Program-made: the position numbers and the translations under genes
Shown: in pieces, positions 3,170 to 20,063 of the stretch
How the letters are laid out: every line of letters begins with the position of its first letter
How positions within the stretch are numbered: position 1 is the stretch's first letter
IMG/VR virus record: IMGVR_UViG_3300009071_000098
Coordinates: 1 to 20,084 of that record
Reading direction: 5' to 3' (one strand)
DNA length: 20,084 bases
DNA from: a virus
The notes under the pieces: generated by a model
Databases searched by the model: none
Told to the model about the DNA's origin: nothing
What the model saw: only the letters and a program-made list of their open reading frames with translations

Positions 3170-3814
3170 TTACTCCTGTTCGGGCTTCTTTCGTAAGAAT
3201 ACCTGATATTTCATTAATATTACATCTACTTCTCTCACATGAGTTTCAATAAATGTATTAATGGCCATGTGAGGCCTTTCCACATCTGTATCCATATCAT
3301 CGTGAGGTTTCCACGTATAATCATCGAATATCATTAAACCGCCTGGTCTCAAAAGTTTCAGAGACATCATTGCATCTAATAAAACGTCGGGAGTACGATG
3401 AGACCCATCGATATAAATCCAATCAAAAGAACCTTCGTGTTTATCCATAAGTCCACTCATCATTCTGTGCGAGGGGCCTTTGAGTCGTACAACTGTTGGT
3501 CTTGGATTTTTGTCTTCGAGTGCGTCTACTATATTTCTACCAAATTTGTATTCGACATCGATGAAATTGACATCTTGGTGCTCTGAGCTACCTTCCCATG
3601 TATCAATGCAAAATAATTGCTGTAAAGAGGGGGCGTTATCGAGTAAGAAACAAGCAGAAGCTCCTTCATAAGAGCCTATTTCCATTGCTTTTAATGGTTT
3701 CCACTCTTGGATGAAACCGGGCCAATCGTTGTGGACATTCGAGCCCTTATACCAGCGATGGGTAAAGTCATATTTTGAATCATCATAATTGTCCACAGCT
3801 TCACCTTTCTTCAC
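3170..3814 (-). CDS. Class I SAM-dependent methyltransferase (Methyltransf_24-like)
   Basis: The 214-residue protein has a Rossmann-type methyltransferase core. AMEIGSYEGASA (43-54) is motif I, D71 in FCIDTWEGS is the likely acidic ribose ligand, and YIDGSHRTPDVLLDAMMSLK (134-153) followed by LLRPGGLMIFDDY (154-166) gives the motifs IV-VI region. The YIDGSH...GG..IFDDY pattern is that of the Methyltransf_24/cephalosporin hydroxylase-like group, often linked to sugar or natural-product methylation. The substrate is unknown. The GTG at 3814 makes a 4-base GTGA overlap with the previous gene; a GTG at 3796 behind AAAGGTGAAGCT is an equally good start and would shorten the protein by six residues. 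Confidence 0.85.
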   Translation of the reverse strand: MKKGEAVDNYDDSKYDFTHRWYKGSNVHNDWPGFIQEWKPLKAMEIGSYEGASACFLLDNAPSLQQLFCIDTWEGSSEHQDVNFIDVEYKFGRNIVDALEDKNPRPTVVRLKGPSHRMMSGLMDKHEGSFDWIYIDGSHRTPDVLLDAMMSLKLLRPGGLMIFDDYTWKPHDDMDTDVERPHMAINTFIETHVREVDVILMKYQVFLRKKPEQE

Positions 3815-3999: not shown

Positions 4000-4477
4000 A
4001 GCCCGACTCCTCTATAATAGGTAAGATATCATTCAGGTTTTTGAGGCCCTCATCACTATTAGAAAACATGAAAAGGGAACTTGACTGATGGTCTGGTGTG
4101 AAGCAATACATCGTGTGAAACCATTTAGCATTTTCAAAATTCTTAGAGTCTGGATCCATAACGTAACCTTCACCATCACATTCAGGGCAATCGACGTACT
4201 GTTCATTGCCATCTTCATCGGGTTCAGTATCGTCGTAATCAGAACTCTCAATCATACCCTCGCCTTCACAAGCCTCACATTCAATCTGATCATCAACTTC
4301 ACAATCTTGCTCATGATTCATCAACACCTTGTCGAAGTCGACCTCTTGGCCTTCGAACGGGCCTGCTTCGTGTTTGGATGGGATATCACTCCAGGCGCAG
4401 GATTGACAACAGGGCATTCCCCACTCTACAAACCAGCCCTCTTCCCGTAATCGGGTTTGCAATTTAGCAAAACTCAT
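3935..4477 (-). CDS. Zinc-ribbon protein with CxxCxGxG motifs, 180 aa
   Basis: Two DnaJ-like half-sites, CEACEGEG (67-74) and CPECDGEG (97-104), would make one zinc-binding ribbon separated by an acidic stretch of about 20 residues. The N-terminal half also has a PCCQSCAW motif (22-29) after GWFVEWGM. The C-terminal half (HTMYCFTPDHQSSSLFMF... YTWSGSGKSRIDI) has the look of a conserved small-protein domain seen in uncharacterised bacterial and phage proteins. The molecular role is unknown; the zinc ribbon suggests protein or nucleic-acid contacts. Start ATG 4477 overlaps the previous stop as ATGA. The ORF's last 65 bases are shared with the next gene in another frame. Confidence 0.8.
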   Translation of the reverse strand: MSFAKLQTRLREEGWFVEWGMPCCQSCAWSDIPSKHEAGPFEGQEVDFDKVLMNHEQDCEVDDQIECEACEGEGMIESSDYDDTEPDEDGNEQYVDCPECDGEGYVMDPDSKNFENAKWFHTMYCFTPDHQSSSLFMFSNSDEGLKNLNDILPIIEESGCGYTWSGSGKSRIDIHWPRAD

Positions 4478-4680
4478 CGAGATATGGCCTTCGTCTTTAC
4501 GAATACAGTGTAATCCGTGTTATGCTTAGGAAACCCTTTATCGTCGTGGACTATCATGTCCACAGCAAACCCATCTTCAAAAACTTCCGAAACAAAACCG
4601 GTAGCGCGTTTGCCGTTACGCTCAAAGTTAACAAAAGAACCATTCAGGTATGCTTTCGGGTTATGTGTTGATCCGCTCAT
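4474..4680 (-). CDS. Small hypothetical protein, 68 aa
   Basis: The product begins MSGSTHNPKAYLNGSFVNFE and continues with alternating beta-type segments (GKRATGFVSEVF, GFAVDMIVHDDKG, TDYTVFVKTKAI), suggesting a small barrel of SH3 or KOW type, though I cannot name a family. AGAGGACAAAGACG before the ATG is a good ribosome site. It overlaps neighbours by ATGA at both ends (4474-4477 and 4677-4680), so it belongs to the coupled leftward operon. Confidence 0.7.
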   Translation of the reverse strand: MSGSTHNPKAYLNGSFVNFERNGKRATGFVSEVFEDGFAVDMIVHDDKGFPKHNTDYTVFVKTKAISR

Positions 4681-4805
4681 CGTCTTTGTCCTCTAAATTG
4701 TCGTAATGCTACTATCAATGCAGCTCTTAGTCTGGTGTCGCTCAGTTGAAATACTGATACCTGCCTTTGAACCAAAGCTTGTAAATCGTGTTCCGCCTGT
4801 GTCAT
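4677..4805 (-). CDS. Small hypothetical protein, 42 aa
   Basis: The ATG at 4805 shares its A with the TGA of the metallopeptidase gene (TGATG) and is preceded by GAGG at good spacing. The stop overlaps the next gene's ATG as ATGA. The peptide (MTQAEHDLQALVQRQVSVFQ, then LSDTRLRAALIVALRQFRGQ and RR) is predicted almost wholly helical and basic at the C-terminus. No family is recognised. It exactly fills the space between two well-supported genes with overlap at both ends, which is strong evidence for a short ORF. Confidence 0.65.
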   Translation of the reverse strand: MTQAEHDLQALVQRQVSVFQLSDTRLRAALIVALRQFRGQRR

Positions 4806-5227
4806 CACGAGGCCTCTACGAATTTCAACATCAATTTGTTTTGAAGCTTTCGAGCCTCAATTTCCCATGGCTGATCCCAGTACCCAACATCCTCATAACC
4901 AGATTTGCCTTTCCACTGGGACAATTGCCAATCTATTTCACCTCGAAGATATTGCTTCATGTGAACCATTTCGTGGGCTAGGGTACCTAACCAGTTACCA
5001 TAGAGACACACATCAATATTAAAAGATCGGTCTCCAGTGGGTTCGATCAGACCCTCATTATCAGACGTCATCACAAATTTATGATGAAGTCGTAAAGTCA
5101 AGTTTGTCTTGAATCGATCAATTTTAAGTTCTTTTGCGAAGAACTTGATAGCTTCTAGTGCGTATCCATGAAGATGAAGATCGAGTTGGCCACCGAGTGG
5201 ACCCATCACTTGAGATTTTACAGCCAT
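4805..5227 (-). CDS. SprT-like zinc metallopeptidase, 140 aa
   Basis: TLAHEMVHMKQ (82-92) is an HExxH zinc-metallopeptidase motif (H85, E86, H89). Downstream QPWEIEARKLQN (119-130) provides a glutamate of the kind used as third zinc ligand in small phage and SprT-like peptidases (E122 or E124). The length fits a minimal catalytic domain without the C-terminal zinc ribbon of full SprT. Substrate is unknown; possible roles are cleavage of host DNA-bound proteins or of phage proteins. AAGGAGCTTAA before the ATG is a strong ribosome site, and the ATG directly follows the previous TAA. There is no signal peptide, so it acts inside the host cell. Confidence 0.82.
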   Translation of the reverse strand: MAVKSQVMGPLGGQLDLHLHGYALEAIKFFAKELKIDRFKTNLTLRLHHKFVMTSDNEGLIEPTGDRSFNIDVCLYGNWLGTLAHEMVHMKQYLRGEIDWQLSQWKGKSGYEDVGYWDQPWEIEARKLQNKLMLKFVEAS

Positions 5228-7766: not shown

Positions 7767-9115
7767 CTGATTTAACAACATTCGTAAAAGATTCGGCGAA
7801 TGAATATCCGATATCGAATGTAGCCAAGAATGAATGGTTAGACTTTGCGATGTACACGGTAGAGGCTAGGGCTATTCCTAACATGATTGATGGTTTGAAA
7901 CCAGTCCAACGATTCTATCTCTATTCATCCATTAAGAATTCTAAGTCAGAATTTAAGAAGGTTTCTGCAGTTGCGGGTATCATCAGTGATTATGGTTACA
8001 ATCACGGCGAATCTTCTGCTGCAGCTGCTGGACAATTGATGGCTGCAGAATGGAATAACAATGTATGTTTGGTTGAAGGCCGAGGTTCATTCGGAACACG
8101 ACTTGTCCAAGAGGCAGGTGCTGCTCGATATGTCTACACCAGACTATCTGAAAATTTTAATAGATATATTACCGACATTGATTTGTCACTCACACACGAG
8201 GATCCTGAACATGAGCCACCTAAATTCTATGTCCCAATCATTCCTTTGGTACTTGTCAACGGACAACGCGGTATTGCTACTGGCTTTGCCCATCTTAGTC
8301 TTCCAAGAAATCCTTTAGATGTTGCACAGGCCTGTAAAGAATATGTCGCGACGGGGAAAATCACAAGCAGTTTGCCGATCACGTTTCCCCAATTTACCGG
8401 TAGGGTTGAGGCCGATCCCGATGGAAGTAAATTTACCGTCTTCGGCAATTATCGAAAAAGGACAAAGACCACGCTATCAATTACTGAGGTTCCATACGGA
8501 TACGATCGAGAGTCATATGTAAAGATTCTCGATTCACTAGAAGATGATGGTGATATTGTCAGTTATGAAGATAGATGTGACAAGGACGGATTTCGATTCG
8601 AGGTGAAATTAAAGCAGAACAGTTCTGCCAAATGGAACACGAAACAAATCTATTCTAAATTCAAGCTAACCAAGTCCTTTACAGAAAATATGACTGTGAT
8701 AGGACCTGATGGCAAATTGAAAGAATACAATACAGCTGAAGATCTAATTAAAGATTTCTGTGACTGGAGGAGTGATTTCCTTTCAAAACGAATCGAGAAA
8801 AACACCGCTGAATATGAAGCTGAAATTCGATGGTTGGAAATCAGATTGGCTTTTGTTGAAGGAGTTCGCTCTGGGCAGATTGACATAATGAGTCTAAATA
8901 AGAATGACCTGATAAAAAGTATTATGACTATTACAAAGTGTGATACAAAAGAGGTCACCAAATTAATGGCAATGCCTATATCATCGATCATGAAATCAGA
9001 GCCCGCAGTATTCAAAAGGTTCATCACTGAAGCTAAAAAGAAACTAAAGTTCTGGAAAACTACAACTACAAAAGATCAGTTTCTTGCTGACTTGGATGAA
9101 TTGAATGCAAACTGA
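7763..9115 (+). CDS. 52: Phage type II DNA topoisomerase, medium (breakage-reunion) subunit
   Basis: The 450-residue protein is close in length to T4 gp52. It is homologous to the GyrA/ParC breakage-reunion core: ARAIPNMIDGLKPVQR (35-50) opens the winged-helix domain, GYNHGESS (78-85) follows, and GAARYVYTRLS (119-129) carries the catalytic R122-Y123 pair that forms the 5'-phosphotyrosyl bond. QRGIATGF further on is the conserved tower segment. A coiled-coil region (RIEKNTAEYEAEIRWLEIRL) follows, as in gp52. The gene is coupled to the large subunit by ATGA, with AAGGAG close before the start. The final 11 bases overlap the FkbM gene. Confidence 0.95.
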   Translation: MTDLTTFVKDSANEYPISNVAKNEWLDFAMYTVEARAIPNMIDGLKPVQRFYLYSSIKNSKSEFKKVSAVAGIISDYGYNHGESSAAAAGQLMAAEWNNNVCLVEGRGSFGTRLVQEAGAARYVYTRLSENFNRYITDIDLSLTHEDPEHEPPKFYVPIIPLVLVNGQRGIATGFAHLSLPRNPLDVAQACKEYVATGKITSSLPITFPQFTGRVEADPDGSKFTVFGNYRKRTKTTLSITEVPYGYDRESYVKILDSLEDDGDIVSYEDRCDKDGFRFEVKLKQNSSAKWNTKQIYSKFKLTKSFTENMTVIGPDGKLKEYNTAEDLIKDFCDWRSDFLSKRIEKNTAEYEAEIRWLEIRLAFVEGVRSGQIDIMSLNKNDLIKSIMTITKCDTKEVTKLMAMPISSIMKSEPAVFKRFITEAKKKLKFWKTTTTKDQFLADLDELNAN

Positions 9116-9878
9116 ATATGATGGCCCAAGAAGAACCCACTTCAACCAAAGAGATAAAAACCTAAACGAGTACATTGATGCCACTGGCATTCCGATGCGG
9201 TCACTGGGAACAATGTATCATGAATTTTTCAAGCGGATGGATTATGATTGGTGGTACGAGGTACAGCCTGGTGACGTCGTAGTCGATCTAGGAGCATGTA
9301 TTGGTATGTTTACCCTTCACGCTCTAGACAAAGGTGCCAAGAAAGTATATGCTGTAGAGGGTAGTAAACAAAACATAGAAACCACTATTAAGAATCTGAG
9401 TCCTTATTGGCTGAAACATGGTCATTGTCCTGTTGTTCCTATTCATACCATGATAGGTGATAAGAAAAGATACTCTTTGAAATTGCACAATTATGTGTAT
9501 TCCGATGAAGTAAATTTGTCCATGATGTCGTTTAAAGAATTTCTGGAAAAATACAAGATCGAACACATTGATTATCTAAAAGTCGATATCGAAGGTTCTG
9601 AATATGATATCTTTACTGAAGAAAATATATTCTTTCTTCGTAATCATGTCAAACACATGTCTGTAGAATTCCATTTAAATTGTTTCAGAGAGGCACCTTG
9701 GGAATGGATGCGAGTACGAGAGTTGATTGGGACTCACTTCGACCTCAATAAAGTTCGATATATGTCTCGTGAAGATGAATATGAGTTCCATGGCAACTAT
9801 GATACTGAATTCAAAACTGGTCAGTGGCCACATAACAATATATTTTCTGGGTTTATGTTATACATCACCAATTGGTAA
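9105..9878 (+). CDS. FkbM-family SAM methyltransferase, 257 aa
   Basis: VVVDLGACIGMFT (58-70) is SAM-binding motif I, VYAVEG (81-86) the second strand with acidic E85, and DYLKVDIEGSEYDIF (156-170) the diagnostic KxDIEGxE block of FkbM methyltransferases, which O-methylate sugars and natural products. The C-terminus is HNNIFSGFMLYITNW. The substrate is unknown; phage or host-surface glycans are candidates. It starts inside gene 52 (11-base overlap) with only a weak ribosome site, so it is probably read from the topoisomerase transcript. It converges with a paralogue whose end overlaps it by 14 bases, both finishing in YITNW. Confidence 0.88.
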   Translation: MQTEYDGPRRTHFNQRDKNLNEYIDATGIPMRSLGTMYHEFFKRMDYDWWYEVQPGDVVVDLGACIGMFTLHALDKGAKKVYAVEGSKQNIETTIKNLSPYWLKHGHCPVVPIHTMIGDKKRYSLKLHNYVYSDEVNLSMMSFKEFLEKYKIEHIDYLKVDIEGSEYDIFTEENIFFLRNHVKHMSVEFHLNCFREAPWEWMRVRELIGTHFDLNKVRYMSREDEYEFHGNYDTEFKTGQWPHNNIFSGFMLYITNW

Positions 9879-10515
9879 TATACATTAATATCGTGTCACC
9901 GTGTTGGGAATGTTTCCATTCTTTGCTTCTGAGATAACTATCATTTCTGAAATACCAGCCTGGGACACCATAGCCCCAGGTTTTTGGTCCGAATATTTGG
10001 ATCTTATTTCCAAAAAGTTCGAACTCCCATCGGTTTAAAAATGCATTTCGCCAATCAATGAATTGCTCTATAGTATCGTCTGTAAGGTATATCATTAATG
10101 CTATATGCCTCACGTTCCATCGAAACCATTCCACATGTTCAGGGGTGAGGATACTATAAAAAGAGGTATCACCGGTATTGATTTTGAGAAAATCGATCTT
10201 GTCAATATTGTAATTCACTAAAAAATCTTTCCAACTTAGATCTGTTCCTAGTGCATTAGGTACAATGACTACTCTTTGATTATCTTCGCCGACATTTTTT
10301 TGAATGTTTTGAATTGCAATAGGATCTGGTTCTACAGCATAAACACAATCTGCTCCGGCATCCAACGCCTTACATGTAAATAATCCAGCAGCTGCTCCAA
10401 CATCCACCACGATATCTTCGGGCAGGATTTCTCTGAAATAAGAATAACAGTCAAGTTCGACAATGCGTCGCCAATCAGAATTATCGCTTGGCATATTAGG
10501 AGGGAAATACTTCAA
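9865..10515 (-). CDS. FkbM-like methyltransferase paralogue, motif degenerate, 216 aa
   Basis: IVVDVGAAAGLFT (35-47) is a good SAM motif I, and VYAVEPDPIAIQN (58-70) is a normal second strand. The FkbM signature is altered: FLKINTGDTSFYSIL (109-123) replaces the expected KxDxEGxE, losing the conserved acidic residues. Either catalysis differs or the protein is now a non-methylating binding fold. The C-terminus (LMYITNW) matches the converging neighbour. The start is TTG at 10515 behind ATGGAGCAGCA; the next in-frame ATG, eight codons in, has no ribosome site. A GATAAATA late-like element lies about 60 bases upstream. This is the only leftward gene between 5840 and 20084. Confidence 0.78.
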   Translation of the reverse strand: MKYFPPNMPSDNSDWRRIVELDCYSYFREILPEDIVVDVGAAAGLFTCKALDAGADCVYAVEPDPIAIQNIQKNVGEDNQRVVIVPNALGTDLSWKDFLVNYNIDKIDFLKINTGDTSFYSILTPEHVEWFRWNVRHIALMIYLTDDTIEQFIDWRNAFLNRWEFELFGNKIQIFGPKTWGYGVPGWYFRNDSYLRSKEWKHSQHGDTILMYITNW

Positions 10516-10526
10516 TGCTGCTCCAT

Positions 10527-10534
10527 CATAAATA
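10527..10534 (+). promoter_or_regulatory. Possible late promoter before tail-tube-like gene
   Basis: CATAAATA matches seven of eight bases of the T4 late element TATAAATA and lies 28 bases before the tail-tube-like ATG, a typical distance. A virion gene is expected to be late. The match is short, so chance cannot be excluded. Confidence 0.45.
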
Positions 10535-10562: not shown

Positions 10563-11051
10563 ATGATCACTAACTATTTATCTCCTGCTGGGTTCGATCT
10601 TTCTATTGACTTGCTACCCACCACTGAATTTTTCTGTCAAAGTATTTCTATACCTGAAATTGCTGGTACACCACCTGGGCTTGGCAGTCCGTTGCGGCAA
10701 ATGTATAACCTACCGGATAGCTTGTTATACGGTGATTTGTCAATCGATTTTGTCGTAGACGAAAACATGAAGAACTATGTCGAATGCCTGACTTGGTTAG
10801 AGGCAATCGGTGCACCAAAATCTAGTGATCAATATAAGAATTGGAAAGAAACTGTCGGCAGATTTACGACCGATATTACCATTATCATCCAAAATAGCAA
10901 AAAGAATCCGAATGTCAAATTCACTTTTTTTGATGCTTTCCCTACAGGGATTAGTGGGCTTGATATGACTGTTACTGGTTCTGATGTCCCCCCTGTCCTC
11001 TGTACATTAAGTCTACGCTATGAATCCTTTGAAGTTTCGGACATTGAATGA
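10563..11051 (+). CDS. Tail tube-like protein (T4 gp19/gp54 fold), 162 aa
   Basis: The layout follows the T4 tail-tube fold: FFCQSISIPEI near residue 23, a proline/glycine loop, YGDLSIDFVVDENMKNYVEC in the centre, a helix with WLEAIG, then ITIIIQNSKKNPNVKFTFFD, AFPTGISGLDMTVTGSD and a final LCTLSLRYESFEV strand. T4 gp19 has the same length (163) and the same succession of FxC, DExx...W, FPT and F.VTL.Y elements. It could be the main tube subunit, the tube initiator-like protein or a baseplate paralogue; it is not next to a sheath gene, so the exact role is open. AGGTAATACCCA precedes the ATG. The stop overlaps the sulfotransferase start as ATGA. Confidence 0.72.
   Translation: MITNYLSPAGFDLSIDLLPTTEFFCQSISIPEIAGTPPGLGSPLRQMYNLPDSLLYGDLSIDFVVDENMKNYVECLTWLEAIGAPKSSDQYKNWKETVGRFTTDITIIIQNSKKNPNVKFTFFDAFPTGISGLDMTVTGSDVPPVLCTLSLRYESFEVSDIE
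10575..10582 (-). promoter_or_regulatory. Possible leftward late promoter
   Basis: The leftward strand reads GATAAATA, seven of eight to the late element, 60 bases upstream of the TTG start of the degenerate FkbM paralogue. It lies within the first codons of the tail-tube-like gene. It would give that solitary leftward gene a promoter, but support is only the short match and position. Confidence 0.28.
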
Positions 11052-11830
11052 TCGTATCGAAAGACGCATATTATATTGATGTACCAAAAACCGGCTCCAC
11101 TTTCATTGTAAAAAATCTTTCGAGGATTTGTACCGGATGGTCTGTGTCTGGATTCCAGAATATAACTGGTTCCATCCATGACGATAGGCACGGCAGACTC
11201 CTTAACTACAATAAAGAAGAATTTAAAGATAGGGTGATATTTTCTTCCCTTAGAGACCCAGTATCAATTTACATCTCAACATGGGCCAATGAAGAAATTG
11301 TGGGTCCACACAAAATTAATTTCAGAGCAAATCACCCTGATTATAAAGATCATGTGTGGGAGTTTTGTAGAAGAGCAGTCAATTGGTTTCCATGCGGAAC
11401 TCCATTGACTGCACAAGAAAATCCTAGACATATTAACAGACCATATCGGTTAGGAATGGTCACGTTTCGATATCTTGATTGGGTAGATGATAGCTTCTTT
11501 ACAAAGAAAAGAACTTGGGAGGAGGTCGAGGAGTGGTACGATACTCATTATTTTGACCCATCTGTCCCAGTACACTTTTTAGGCCCTCGAAATCTCGGTG
11601 CTGATTTTGTTAATCTCATACGCGACAATAGAGAAAAATTCTCTTTCCGTGATGATGTCGACATTGAGGCTGAATTGAACCTAATCGAACAAAACGAATA
11701 TATGAACGTCAGATATTCTTCAGATCAACAACAGCGTATAATCGATAATATGGTTGCCCATGACCCATCGATCATTGACGATCTAAAAGAGGCTGAACGT
11801 ATCCTCTATTCTAGGATTGACTTTTCTTAA
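11048..11830 (+). CDS. Sulfotransferase family protein, 260 aa
   Basis: YIDVPKTGSTFIVKNL (9-24) is the 5'-phosphosulfate-binding loop of PAPS-dependent sulfotransferases (K14, T15, S17, T18), and VIFSSLRDPVSIYISTWANE (63-82) is the 3'-phosphate-binding segment with R69 and S73. The remainder is aromatic-rich and less conserved, as in Golgi-type and bacterial carbohydrate sulfotransferases. The reaction would move sulfate from PAPS to a sugar or tyrosine hydroxyl; the acceptor is unknown. It is coupled to the tail-tube-like gene by ATGA and so is probably made late, which would suit modification of virion or cell-surface glycan. The uvsY promoter lies across its last codons. No signal peptide is visible, so it should be cytoplasmic. 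Confidence 0.85.
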   Translation: MIVSKDAYYIDVPKTGSTFIVKNLSRICTGWSVSGFQNITGSIHDDRHGRLLNYNKEEFKDRVIFSSLRDPVSIYISTWANEEIVGPHKINFRANHPDYKDHVWEFCRRAVNWFPCGTPLTAQENPRHINRPYRLGMVTFRYLDWVDDSFFTKKRTWEEVEEWYDTHYFDPSVPVHFLGPRNLGADFVNLIRDNREKFSFRDDVDIEAELNLIEQNEYMNVRYSSDQQQRIIDNMVAHDPSIIDDLKEAERILYSRIDFS

Positions 11831-11845
11831 ATAATATGATATAAT
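11817..11845 (+). promoter_or_regulatory. Sigma70-type promoter for uvsY operon
   Basis: TTGACT, a 17-base spacer ending in TGA and a perfect TATAAT make this the strongest rightward promoter in the window. It straddles the sulfotransferase stop codon. The predicted start near 11852 leaves about 22 bases of leader with GGAAG before the uvsY ATG. Confidence 0.8.
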
Positions 11846-11873: not shown

Positions 11874-12311
11874 ATGAGTATTGAAGACATCGGCTCTATG
11901 TGGGCTTCAGATGCACCAATTGATGAGTCCAACCTAGTTCTCGCGTCAAGGCGAATCCCAGAGCTACATTCTAAGTATTACAATATGTATTTTAAAGAAG
12001 CTCTTTTGGTCAAGAAGTTTAAGGCTCAATTGAAAGAATTGCAATTGGCAAAGTCTGAATATTATAGTGGGTCCATGGCAGAAGAAGATCTAAAGGAACG
12101 AGGCTGGAAGCCTTTCCAACTGAAAGTAATTCGACAAGATTTAGATAAATATACTCAGGCGGATCCAGATATTATCAACCTAAGCCTCAAGATCGATTAT
12201 CATATTGCCCGTGCTGACTACCTTGAGGATATTATTAAGTCTATACATTCAAGAAATTTCATAATCAAATCGATGATTGACGTAATGAAATTTCAGGCCG
12301 GAGAATATTGA
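11874..12311 (+). CDS. uvsY: UvsY recombination mediator
   Basis: The 145-residue protein matches T4 UvsY (137 residues) in length and in pattern: MSIEDI start, PELHSKYYNMYFKEALLVKK, the aromatic KSEYYSG segment, KPFQLKVIRQDLDKYTQADP, then a helical C-terminus (KIDYHIARADYLEDIIKSIH, RNFIIKSMIDVMKF) corresponding to the hexamer-forming part. UvsY loads the UvsX recombinase onto gp32-coated single-stranded DNA for recombination-dependent replication. It has its own strong promoter. uvsW follows after one small gene, so the UvsW/UvsY pairing of T4 is kept although the order differs. Confidence 0.88.
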   Translation: MSIEDIGSMWASDAPIDESNLVLASRRIPELHSKYYNMYFKEALLVKKFKAQLKELQLAKSEYYSGSMAEEDLKERGWKPFQLKVIRQDLDKYTQADPDIINLSLKIDYHIARADYLEDIIKSIHSRNFIIKSMIDVMKFQAGEY

Positions 12312-17516: not shown

Positions 17517-20063
17517 ATGCAATTCTATACTAGCGTTGAGAGATTCGGCAACAACATCCTATATCGTGGTTACAAGGATGGCAAACGTGTGGCCCACAAG
17601 ATCCCATACAAACCCACTCTCTATATCACAGCTCCGAACAAGAAGGGTGGTGAAACCCACACATCTCTGCTGACAGAAAAGCCTCTGCATCCGATGAAGT
17701 TTGATTCGATGAAAGAAGCCAAAGATTTTATCGAGCAGTATAAAGATGTCGGTGGTATTGAGATCTGTGGAAATACCAAGTTCCAGTCTGCGATAATTCA
17801 TGATCTGTTTCCGAATGATATCAAGTTCAATATCGAGGACATCAACATCGTGTCTTTTGATATTGAGGTCGACATCAGTGATGGATTTGCTGACATCGAA
17901 CTGGCTTCTAATGAAATCACTTCGATCTCGTACAAATCATCCAAATCAGATACCTACTGGCTTCTCGGTCGGAAAGACTACGACAAGTATGCCACTGTTA
18001 CTGATATCGACCCAGAGAATATCAACTTCATCAAATTCGATACAGAACAGCAGCTGCTTCGTAGATTCGTAGAACTCTGGAAACAAGACTACCCAGATAT
18101 CGTCACCGGCTGGAACGTCGAATATTTCGACATCATGTACATTGTGACTCGGATTCTCAACACCTGTGGTGAGGATTTGGCAAAACAACTCTCGCCTTGG
18201 AAGCACATCAGCAAGAAATCTAGAAAGATATTCGATAAAGATCAATCGACCTATCATATCTCTGGCGTATCTGTCATTGACTACATGGATGCGTTCAAGA
18301 AGTTCGGTTACAAGTACGGACCTCAAGAGTCTTTTAAATTAGATCATATTGCTCATGTAATTCTAGGCGATAGGAAACTTGACTATTCAGAATACGGCTC
18401 TCTTACTGCCCTATATGAACAGAATCCCCAATTATACCTCGACTACAATATCCAAGACACTCGACTGATCGAAAGGCTGGAGGATGAGACTGCTCTTCTG
18501 GCTCTCGTGATGACCATGGCTTATGCTGGTGGTGTGAACTATGTCGAAGCATTCGGGACTGTGGGCATATGGGAAACAATCCTGTATCGTAGGTTGATGA
18601 ACAAGAAGATTGCTCCACCCATCAAAACCGGACAGGGTGTCCGTGGTGATCTGGTTGGCGGTTATGTAAAAGATCCCAAAGTGGGACTCCACCCTTGGGT
18701 CGTATCTTTTGACCTCAACAGCCTATATCCACACTTGATGATGCAGTACAATATGTCACCCGAGACCTATCTTGCCGATCGTAGGGAATATGTGACTCAG
18801 GACATGGTTCTTGCTGGTGACTATAAGAACGATGACAAATCTGTCTCGGTCACGGCGAATGGTGTTTGCTTTAGAAATGATAAACTAGGTATGATTCCCG
18901 AGATCATTGATGAATACTACAAGAACCGATCTGAAATAAAGCGTACGATGATTGAGGTTGAAAAGAAACTCGAGATCGAGACCGATCTGGTGAAACGACA
19001 GAAACTCAAGCAAGAGGCAAATCAGTTACACAACTCCCAGATGGCTATCAAGATCTCTATGAACAGCCTCTACGGTGCTACTGCCAATGTCTACTTTGCA
19101 TACTATATTAATGAGATGGCAGAATCGATTACCACCTCTGGTCAATTGTCTATCCGATATGCTGAACAGGCTGTGAATGCCTATTTGAACAAATTGCTCA
19201 AGACTGAAGACGAGGATTATATCATCTATATTGATACCGATTCAATCTATGTCAATTTTGCACCGGTTATTTTAGAGGTGTTTGGCACCACTGATATTGA
19301 TCGAATCAAAGGTGAAGAGTTCCTAGACAAGATCTGCTCAACAAAAATTGAACAAGTGATCGAAGATGCGTACCAGAAATTGGCAGACGACCTAGGTGCA
19401 TATCGGCAGGCAATGTCGATGAAACGAGAGAAGATCAACGACCGTGGTCTGTTCGTTGCCAAGAAACGATACATACTGAACACCTTGAACAGTGAAGGTG
19501 TCCATTACGAAACCCCCAAGATCTCAGTCACAGGCCTCGAATCTGTCCGATCGTCTACCCCAGAAGTCTGTCGCGACAAGATGAAAGAGGTTTTCAAAGT
19601 CATCATGCAAGGCACCGAAACTGAGACTCAGGTGTTCATTCAAGACTTCCGAGAAGAATTCAGGAATCTGCCGATTGAAGAAATTGCCAAGAATTCTGGC
19701 ACAGACAACATCGACAAGTTTGTTGAACGAGGTGGTCACTCATTGTATAAGAAAGGGACCCCGATGCATGTTCGTGGTTGTATTCTCTACAACGACTTCC
19801 TAAAACAGAAGGGACTCTCAAAGAAGTACGAAAAGGTCATATCTGGCGACAAGATCAAGTATGTGTATCTGAAGGTTCCCAACCCTCTACGAGAGAACAT
19901 GATCTCGTTCCCACGACAGCTACCACAGGAGTTTGCTCTCGGCCCTTACATCGACTACGATACTCAATTCGACAAGGTTTTTCTCAAACCGATAGACCAG
20001 ATCCTCGAAGCTGTGGGTTGGTCTGCCGAAAAGGTCAATACTTTAGAAGATTTCTTCTCGTAA
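17517..20063 (+). CDS. 43: DNA polymerase gp43 (family B, with 3'-5' exonuclease)
   Basis: The 848-residue protein is complete and slightly shorter than T4 gp43 (898). Exonuclease motifs: SFDIEVD (113-119; D115, E117), TGWNVEYFD (197-205; D205) and YNIQDTRL (310-317; D314). Polymerase motifs: A, SFDLNSLYPHL (397-407; D399); B, KISMNSLYG (512-520); C, YIDTDSIYV (571-579; D573, D575); followed by the KKRYI segment. The C-terminal end (ALGPYIDYDTQFDKVFLKPI then DQILEAVGWSAEKVNTLEDF) includes the region that contacts the sliding clamp. It is the replicative polymerase. Its own promoter and strong ribosome site (GGAG, six bases) set the start at 17517. The 21 bases after the stop hold nothing recognisable. 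Confidence 0.97.
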   Translation: MQFYTSVERFGNNILYRGYKDGKRVAHKIPYKPTLYITAPNKKGGETHTSLLTEKPLHPMKFDSMKEAKDFIEQYKDVGGIEICGNTKFQSAIIHDLFPNDIKFNIEDINIVSFDIEVDISDGFADIELASNEITSISYKSSKSDTYWLLGRKDYDKYATVTDIDPENINFIKFDTEQQLLRRFVELWKQDYPDIVTGWNVEYFDIMYIVTRILNTCGEDLAKQLSPWKHISKKSRKIFDKDQSTYHISGVSVIDYMDAFKKFGYKYGPQESFKLDHIAHVILGDRKLDYSEYGSLTALYEQNPQLYLDYNIQDTRLIERLEDETALLALVMTMAYAGGVNYVEAFGTVGIWETILYRRLMNKKIAPPIKTGQGVRGDLVGGYVKDPKVGLHPWVVSFDLNSLYPHLMMQYNMSPETYLADRREYVTQDMVLAGDYKNDDKSVSVTANGVCFRNDKLGMIPEIIDEYYKNRSEIKRTMIEVEKKLEIETDLVKRQKLKQEANQLHNSQMAIKISMNSLYGATANVYFAYYINEMAESITTSGQLSIRYAEQAVNAYLNKLLKTEDEDYIIYIDTDSIYVNFAPVILEVFGTTDIDRIKGEEFLDKICSTKIEQVIEDAYQKLADDLGAYRQAMSMKREKINDRGLFVAKKRYILNTLNSEGVHYETPKISVTGLESVRSSTPEVCRDKMKEVFKVIMQGTETETQVFIQDFREEFRNLPIEEIAKNSGTDNIDKFVERGGHSLYKKGTPMHVRGCILYNDFLKQKGLSKKYEKVISGDKIKYVYLKVPNPLRENMISFPRQLPQEFALGPYIDYDTQFDKVFLKPIDQILEAVGWSAEKVNTLEDFFS

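Follow-up and report, generated by a model that had tools for sequence, protein, structure and literature searches.

A divergent PAPS-type sulfotransferase gene behind gene 3 in a clade of marine T4-like phages

The window analyzed here is an entire virus record of 20,084 bases. Its genes run in the order FkbM-family methyltransferase (plus strand), FkbM-like methyltransferase (minus strand), gene 3, sulfotransferase, uvsY, a 78-aa open reading frame (ORF), uvsW, 55, 47, 46, and 43, where the names of uvsW, 47, and 46 were assigned from synteny and sequence. The pair under study comprises a gene 3 homolog of 162 aa (10563..11051, plus strand) and a divergent PAPS-type sulfotransferase gene of 260 aa (11048..11830, plus strand), whose ATG overlaps the TGA of gene 3 as ATGA. 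Both ORFs and their start/stop overlap, as given in the original prediction, were confirmed. The gene for the recombination mediator UvsY (11874..12311, plus strand; PF11056, E = 8e-26; phrog_231) forms the downstream border of the region.

The upstream gene had been taken for a tail-tube-like gene of the gp19/gp54 type, an assignment that we correct to gp3, the tail completion protein at the head-proximal tip of the tail tube (phrog_45, E = 2e-25). It matches 790 phage records, the matched genes being annotated gp3, “tail completion”, or “head-proximal tip of tail”, and both the sequence family and the position upstream of uvsY place it with T4 gp3. Stenotrophomonas phage DLP6, Prochlorococcus phage P-SSM4, and Synechococcus phage S-H38 also carry gp3 followed by uvsY-uvsW-55-47-46, so that a tail gene beside replication genes is normal here. 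The idea of an unusual modification module set among replication genes was rejected accordingly, since this order is the standard T4-like synteny.

The second gene encodes the motifs of a PAPS-binding enzyme. A 5′-phosphosulfate loop of the PK[ST][GA][ST]T type, VPKTGSTF, occupies residues 12–19 (11081..11104, plus strand), followed by RHGRL at residues 47–51 (11186..11200, plus strand) and by the 3′-phosphate motif SLRDPVSIYIS at residues 67–77 (11246..11278, plus strand). We aligned the window enzyme with copies from three other phage lineages (L004/L005/L035, L007, and L034) and with one from the bacterium Thalassococcus halodurans (L097). K14, S17, T18, R69, P71, and S77 are invariant across all four phage copies, and the bacterial copy keeps K14, R69, P71, and S77; R47-H48-G49 is invariant in all five sequences. 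The earlier reading of intact PAPS motifs therefore stands for VPKTGSTF and R69 but not for S73, a position at which the phage relatives have E, R, or K. The true PAPS 3′-phosphate serine is S77, eight residues past R69, the spacing found in known PAPS sulfotransferases such as human SULT1E1 (R130/S138). H48 stands 21 residues N-terminal of R69, and the corresponding distance from the base to the arginine is about 22 in SULT1E1 and heparan 2-O-sulfotransferase; this histidine is likely the best candidate for the catalytic base. The paired motif K[TSC][AGS][ST][TS]...R.P.....S was found in 4 of 551 ORFs of at least 200 aa from the fetched loci, all four being members of the enzyme family.

Database models gave a more distant picture of the enzyme. 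No Pfam or NCBIfam model matched it, and none of the four members tested scored above the gathering cut-offs of PF03567, PF13469, and PF00685; as no curated Pfam family was reached, we file the enzyme at the superfamily level only. The phage family phrog_3347 (“Galactose-3-O-sulfotransferase”) matches residues 4–99 of the window enzyme (E = 1.1e-5) and shares both PAPS motifs with it, while the three other phage copies gave no match to this family. Searches of 50,697 phage records by tblastn with three different members returned no relatives, and sequence searches of the PDB with the protein, its alignment, and the bacterial protein L099 returned no match. A profile built from the four phage copies found L099 with E = 2e-4 per genome among 397 genomes searched (~0.08 expected over all), a value that is marginal alone. 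L099 is, however, a genuine PF03567 sulfotransferase (E = 5e-10) that is also matched by phrog_3347, and this strengthens the result, since a chance match would rarely be such a protein.

At the level of whole alignments, hhalign comparisons were weak (P = 0.015 for the PF03567 set, 0.043 for the PF13469 set, and 0.76 for APS kinase), and the comparison was therefore recalibrated with single members and 80 controls. The five-sequence family aligned with L099 over ~93 columns (Prob 85, E = 5.8e-6) with a score of 45.5, where the maximum among 80 unrelated ORFs of similar length was 23.9 and the APS-kinase controls reached 16.0. VPKTGSTF was paired with IPKCAGTT, RHGRL with DHARY, placing H48 on its histidine, and SLRDPVSIYIS with ATRDPWDRALS. 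The likeness to PF03567 (Sulfotransfer_2, the bacterial and eukaryotic carbohydrate sulfotransferases) hence lies in the 5′-phosphosulfate loop, the R-x7-S element, and the H48 region, as seen against this one member. Only the first ~100 residues show detectable similarity to known sulfotransferases; beyond them, the phage enzyme has a conserved C-terminal half of its own (NRP, FRYLDWVDD, W.EVE.WY..HYF.P, and GP.NLG). AlphaFold2 gave poor models with pLDDT values of 39.0 from the single sequence and 42.6 with five sequences, and Foldseek found no significant match of the poor model in the PDB (best E = 1.7; sulfotransferases made up 4 of 25 insignificant matches). The identification of the second gene as a very divergent PAPS-type sulfotransferase is thus supported by sequence, through phrog_3347, the invariant PAPS motifs, and the hhalign score against 80 controls, and not by structure.

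Each of the four lineages of the clade retains the gene pair. Among the relatives whose gp3 is at least 68% identical and whose slot is intact, all have the sulfotransferase gene directly behind gp3; in two further close relatives (L006 and L008) the sequence ends inside gp3. The junction is ATGA in the window, a 1-base overlap in L004/L005, adjacent in L007, and 15 bases apart in L034. Outside the clade, the sulfotransferase was absent from the gp3/uvsY slot in the relatives compared. Between the near-identical copies of L004 and L005, the gene differs by seven synonymous and no nonsynonymous changes, where about three in four changes would be nonsynonymous without selection, showing that it is under purifying selection. 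Pairwise identities are 42–45% for the sulfotransferase and 36–57% for the FkbM proteins, compared with 68–82% for gp3, 77–89% for UvsY, and 81–89% for UvsW; such fast divergence might fit enzymes that face variable host targets. A recent acquisition from a host was rejected, as the base composition of the gene (GC 0.39, GC3 0.36) matches that of its neighbors.

Upstream of gene 3 lies a T4 late-promoter-like element, CATAAATA (10527..10534, plus strand), the sole such site in the window and identical in seven of eight bases to TATAAATA, as T4 late promoters read (PMC3014915; PMC3037559). Of 42 non-redundant relatives, 35 have ATAAATA in the 75 bp preceding gp3, where shuffled sequences predict 2.1, and chance was rejected as its origin. 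The late-like element noticed in the original prediction is present, then, and gene 3 carries a predicted, conserved T4-type late promoter.

A putative sigma70-type promoter for the uvsY unit (TTGACT-17-TATAAT with a TG extension; 11817..11845, plus strand) is the best-scoring promoter-like site between positions 9000 and 13000, and its -35 box falls within the final codons of the sulfotransferase gene. All 51 scored slot sequences, a set that is not fully non-redundant, have their best site close to TTGACA-17-TGnTATAAT before the uvsY unit, under a scoring scheme made for the purpose that takes the best site of the whole slot. The early promoters of T4 are sigma70 promoters (PMC3037559), and its middle genes mostly specify proteins of replication and recombination (PMC2988021).

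In most relatives, only ~10–130 bases separate gp3 from uvsY. Elsewhere the gap is filled by cargo of several kinds: 2OG-Fe(II) oxygenases (at least two families), an endonuclease of the thermonuclease type, an esterase/lipase accompanied by further genes, or the sulfotransferase. Where the slot is empty, the sigma70-type site begins 2–26 bases past the gp3 match. Genomes whose cargo is the sulfotransferase (all four lineages), a nuclease, or a lipase have it between cargo and uvsY, 25–37 bases before the uvsY start, and those with a 2OG oxygenase have it at the gp3 end of the slot, ahead of the cargo and 552–1011 bases before uvsY. Cargo type tracks the side of the promoter in L079–L091, L037, L045, L048, L058, L060, L070, and L072, with oxygenases downstream and nuclease, lipase, and sulfotransferase upstream. 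What is new here is the recognition of the gene 3–uvsY interval as a cargo slot that is divided by a conserved predicted sigma70 promoter. The positions of the site make this slot two-sided: genes inserted next to gp3 should be expressed late, and those inserted next to uvsY should come under the sigma70 promoter.

Two methyltransferase genes adjoin the pair. The first (9105..9878, plus strand) belongs to the FkbM family (PF05050, E = 1.4e-13, 51.8 bits against a cut-off of 22.7; TIGR01444 above cut-off), and the second, convergent with it (9865..10515, minus strand), is FkbM-like (phrog_8156, E = 8e-8; TIGR01444, E = 4.5e-9, just below cut-off). They had been joined with the sulfotransferase into one modification module; the adjacency stands, but many relatives carry FkbM genes without the sulfotransferase, which makes them neighbors rather than obligate partners, and a functional link is at most suggestive. 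The two FkbM genes overlap at 9865–9878 on the palindrome ACCAATTGGT, so that both proteins end in YITNW, and similar tail-to-tail junctions of the ATTACCAATTAGTAAT type occur in L007, L034, L037, L060, and L072. The pair appears to derive from an old inverted duplication that left the two copies with a common end.

The homolog of Thalassococcus halodurans sits beside genes for an FkbM methyltransferase, a capsular-polysaccharide-synthesis glycosyltransferase, a polysaccharide deacetylase, and a GT4 glycosyltransferase. A survey of 397 genomes from this bacterial family and 385 from its class yielded no other close bacterial homolog, so the argument from this neighborhood is that of a single case. 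The FkbM protein of Thalassococcus is 25% identical to the phage FkbM proteins over 133 residues, a distant kinship that makes the parallel one of neighborhood and not of a transferred module. No PAPS synthesis gene was found within the 20,084-base window; an APS kinase is encoded in 56 of 61 genomes of the bacterial homolog's family, which would make PAPS available in hosts of this kind.

Taken together, we propose, with a probability of roughly 0.6, that the gene encodes a cytoplasmic PAPS-dependent sulfotransferase that this clade of marine T4-like phages carries as late-class cargo and that sulfates a surface glycan. Given its position ahead of the uvsY sigma70 promoter, it would share a transcription unit with gene 3 and be transcribed from a gp55-type late promoter, with translation probably starting by reinitiation at the gene 3 stop within ATGA. 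K14, S17, and T18 would hold the 5′-phosphosulfate of PAPS and R69 and S77 its 3′-phosphate, with H48 as the likely base. The coupling to gene 3 would set the timing and dose of the enzyme, with no sign that gp3 is its substrate. The acceptor would most likely be a sugar of a host surface glycan or of its lipid-linked precursor, and the sulfotransferase would possibly act alongside the FkbM methyltransferases. A surface glycan is favored because of the polysaccharide genes around the one bacterial homolog, and we name host polysaccharide as the likeliest target with low confidence. The surface might then be altered late in infection, for example sparing progeny from loss to debris or blocking competing phages. 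Sulfation of bacterial lipopolysaccharide by a dedicated enzyme is established for LpsS of S. meliloti, a sulfotransferase of the Stf0 family (PMC12445080), which offers a precedent for surface-glycan sulfation, although LpsS belongs to a different family and is a host gene rather than a phage gene.

A small metabolite of the host or phage, such as a signal, lipid, or nucleotide, might be the acceptor instead, making the gene a general auxiliary metabolic gene. The acceptors of PAPS sulfotransferases are diverse, and other phages fill the slot with unrelated enzymes. Sulfotransferase genes have been reported in marine phages, in OM43 phages and Synechococcus phage S-SRM01, and what that report says of them calls their role unclear (PMC10580990). 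Those enzymes are likewise phage-encoded and, as far as that account of them goes, have no described acceptor; they are of the Sulfotransfer_3 type (PF13469), a model that the window family fails to match (PMC10580990). The polysaccharide setting of the only close bacterial homolog found and the nearest named family, galactose-3-O-sulfotransferase, both speak against a metabolite, and we consider this alternative unlikely.

The close coupling to gene 3 could also mean that the enzyme sulfates a component of the virion, whether gp3, another tail protein, or a virion glycan, in which case these phages would release sulfated virions. The tight junctions in the window, L004, and L007 and the late-type promoter before gene 3 would fit this, and the FkbM neighbors could modify the same glycan. 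Sulfation of a tail component had indeed been considered in the original prediction. If gp3 were that component, however, a tyrosine peculiar to enzyme-bearing genomes might be sought, and none was found: all six invariant tyrosines of gp3 are also common in 51 relatives without the enzyme, and gp3 was rejected as a tyrosine-sulfation target. In addition, gp3 is conserved while the enzyme diverges, and in other phages nuclease and lipase genes follow gene 3 in this late position, which therefore does not imply gp3 as a substrate. We know of no description of a sulfated phage particle, and a virion target appears improbable. That the protein is a P-loop-like or decayed, catalytically inactive homolog would agree with its high divergence, the absent Pfam match, and the poor AlphaFold2 model, but is very improbable given that every PAPS-site residue is invariant in copies of such low identity, that only synonymous differences separate L004 from L005, and that the APS-kinase P-loop control gave no match.

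The genome itself indicates when the sulfotransferase should be expressed, as every lineage sampled in the clade has the gene, purifying selection acts on it, and it lies on the late side of the conserved promoter pair. The placement of the promoters thereby gives a sharp prediction on the timing of enzyme synthesis and narrows the possible targets. T4-like cyanophages likewise carry host-like accessory genes inserted between syntenic core genes (PMC3037559), and P-SSM4 likewise has an extra gene between gp3 and uvsY. The slot described here differs from such cyanophage cargo in being bounded by predicted late and sigma70 promoters, with cargo type correlated with promoter side, and it would provide a simple system for studying how acquired genes are assigned to early or late expression in T4-like phages.

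Other features of the window were recorded as well. Five tRNA genes (Trp-CCA, Glu-CTC, Tyr-GTA, Asn-GTT, and Thr-TGT) lie on the minus strand at 1524–2580. A 2OG-Fe(II) oxygenase gene (887–1495) and a Methyltransf_24-type methyltransferase gene (3170–3814), both on the minus strand, show that further modification enzymes are present. A 140-aa protein encoded at 4805–5227 on the minus strand belongs to phrog_10499, of unknown function, and carries a metalloprotease-like HExxH motif, GTLAHEMVHMKQY. Gene 43 (17517–20063) has a GC3 of 0.52, compared with 0.34–0.39 in the six other genes measured, an offset that may reflect a different origin or selection. Finally, L007 carries a 219-aa ORF (4315–4974) between its two topoisomerase subunit genes, where the window has no ORF, and its sequence reads like that of a homing endonuclease of the NUMOD/GIY-YIG type.
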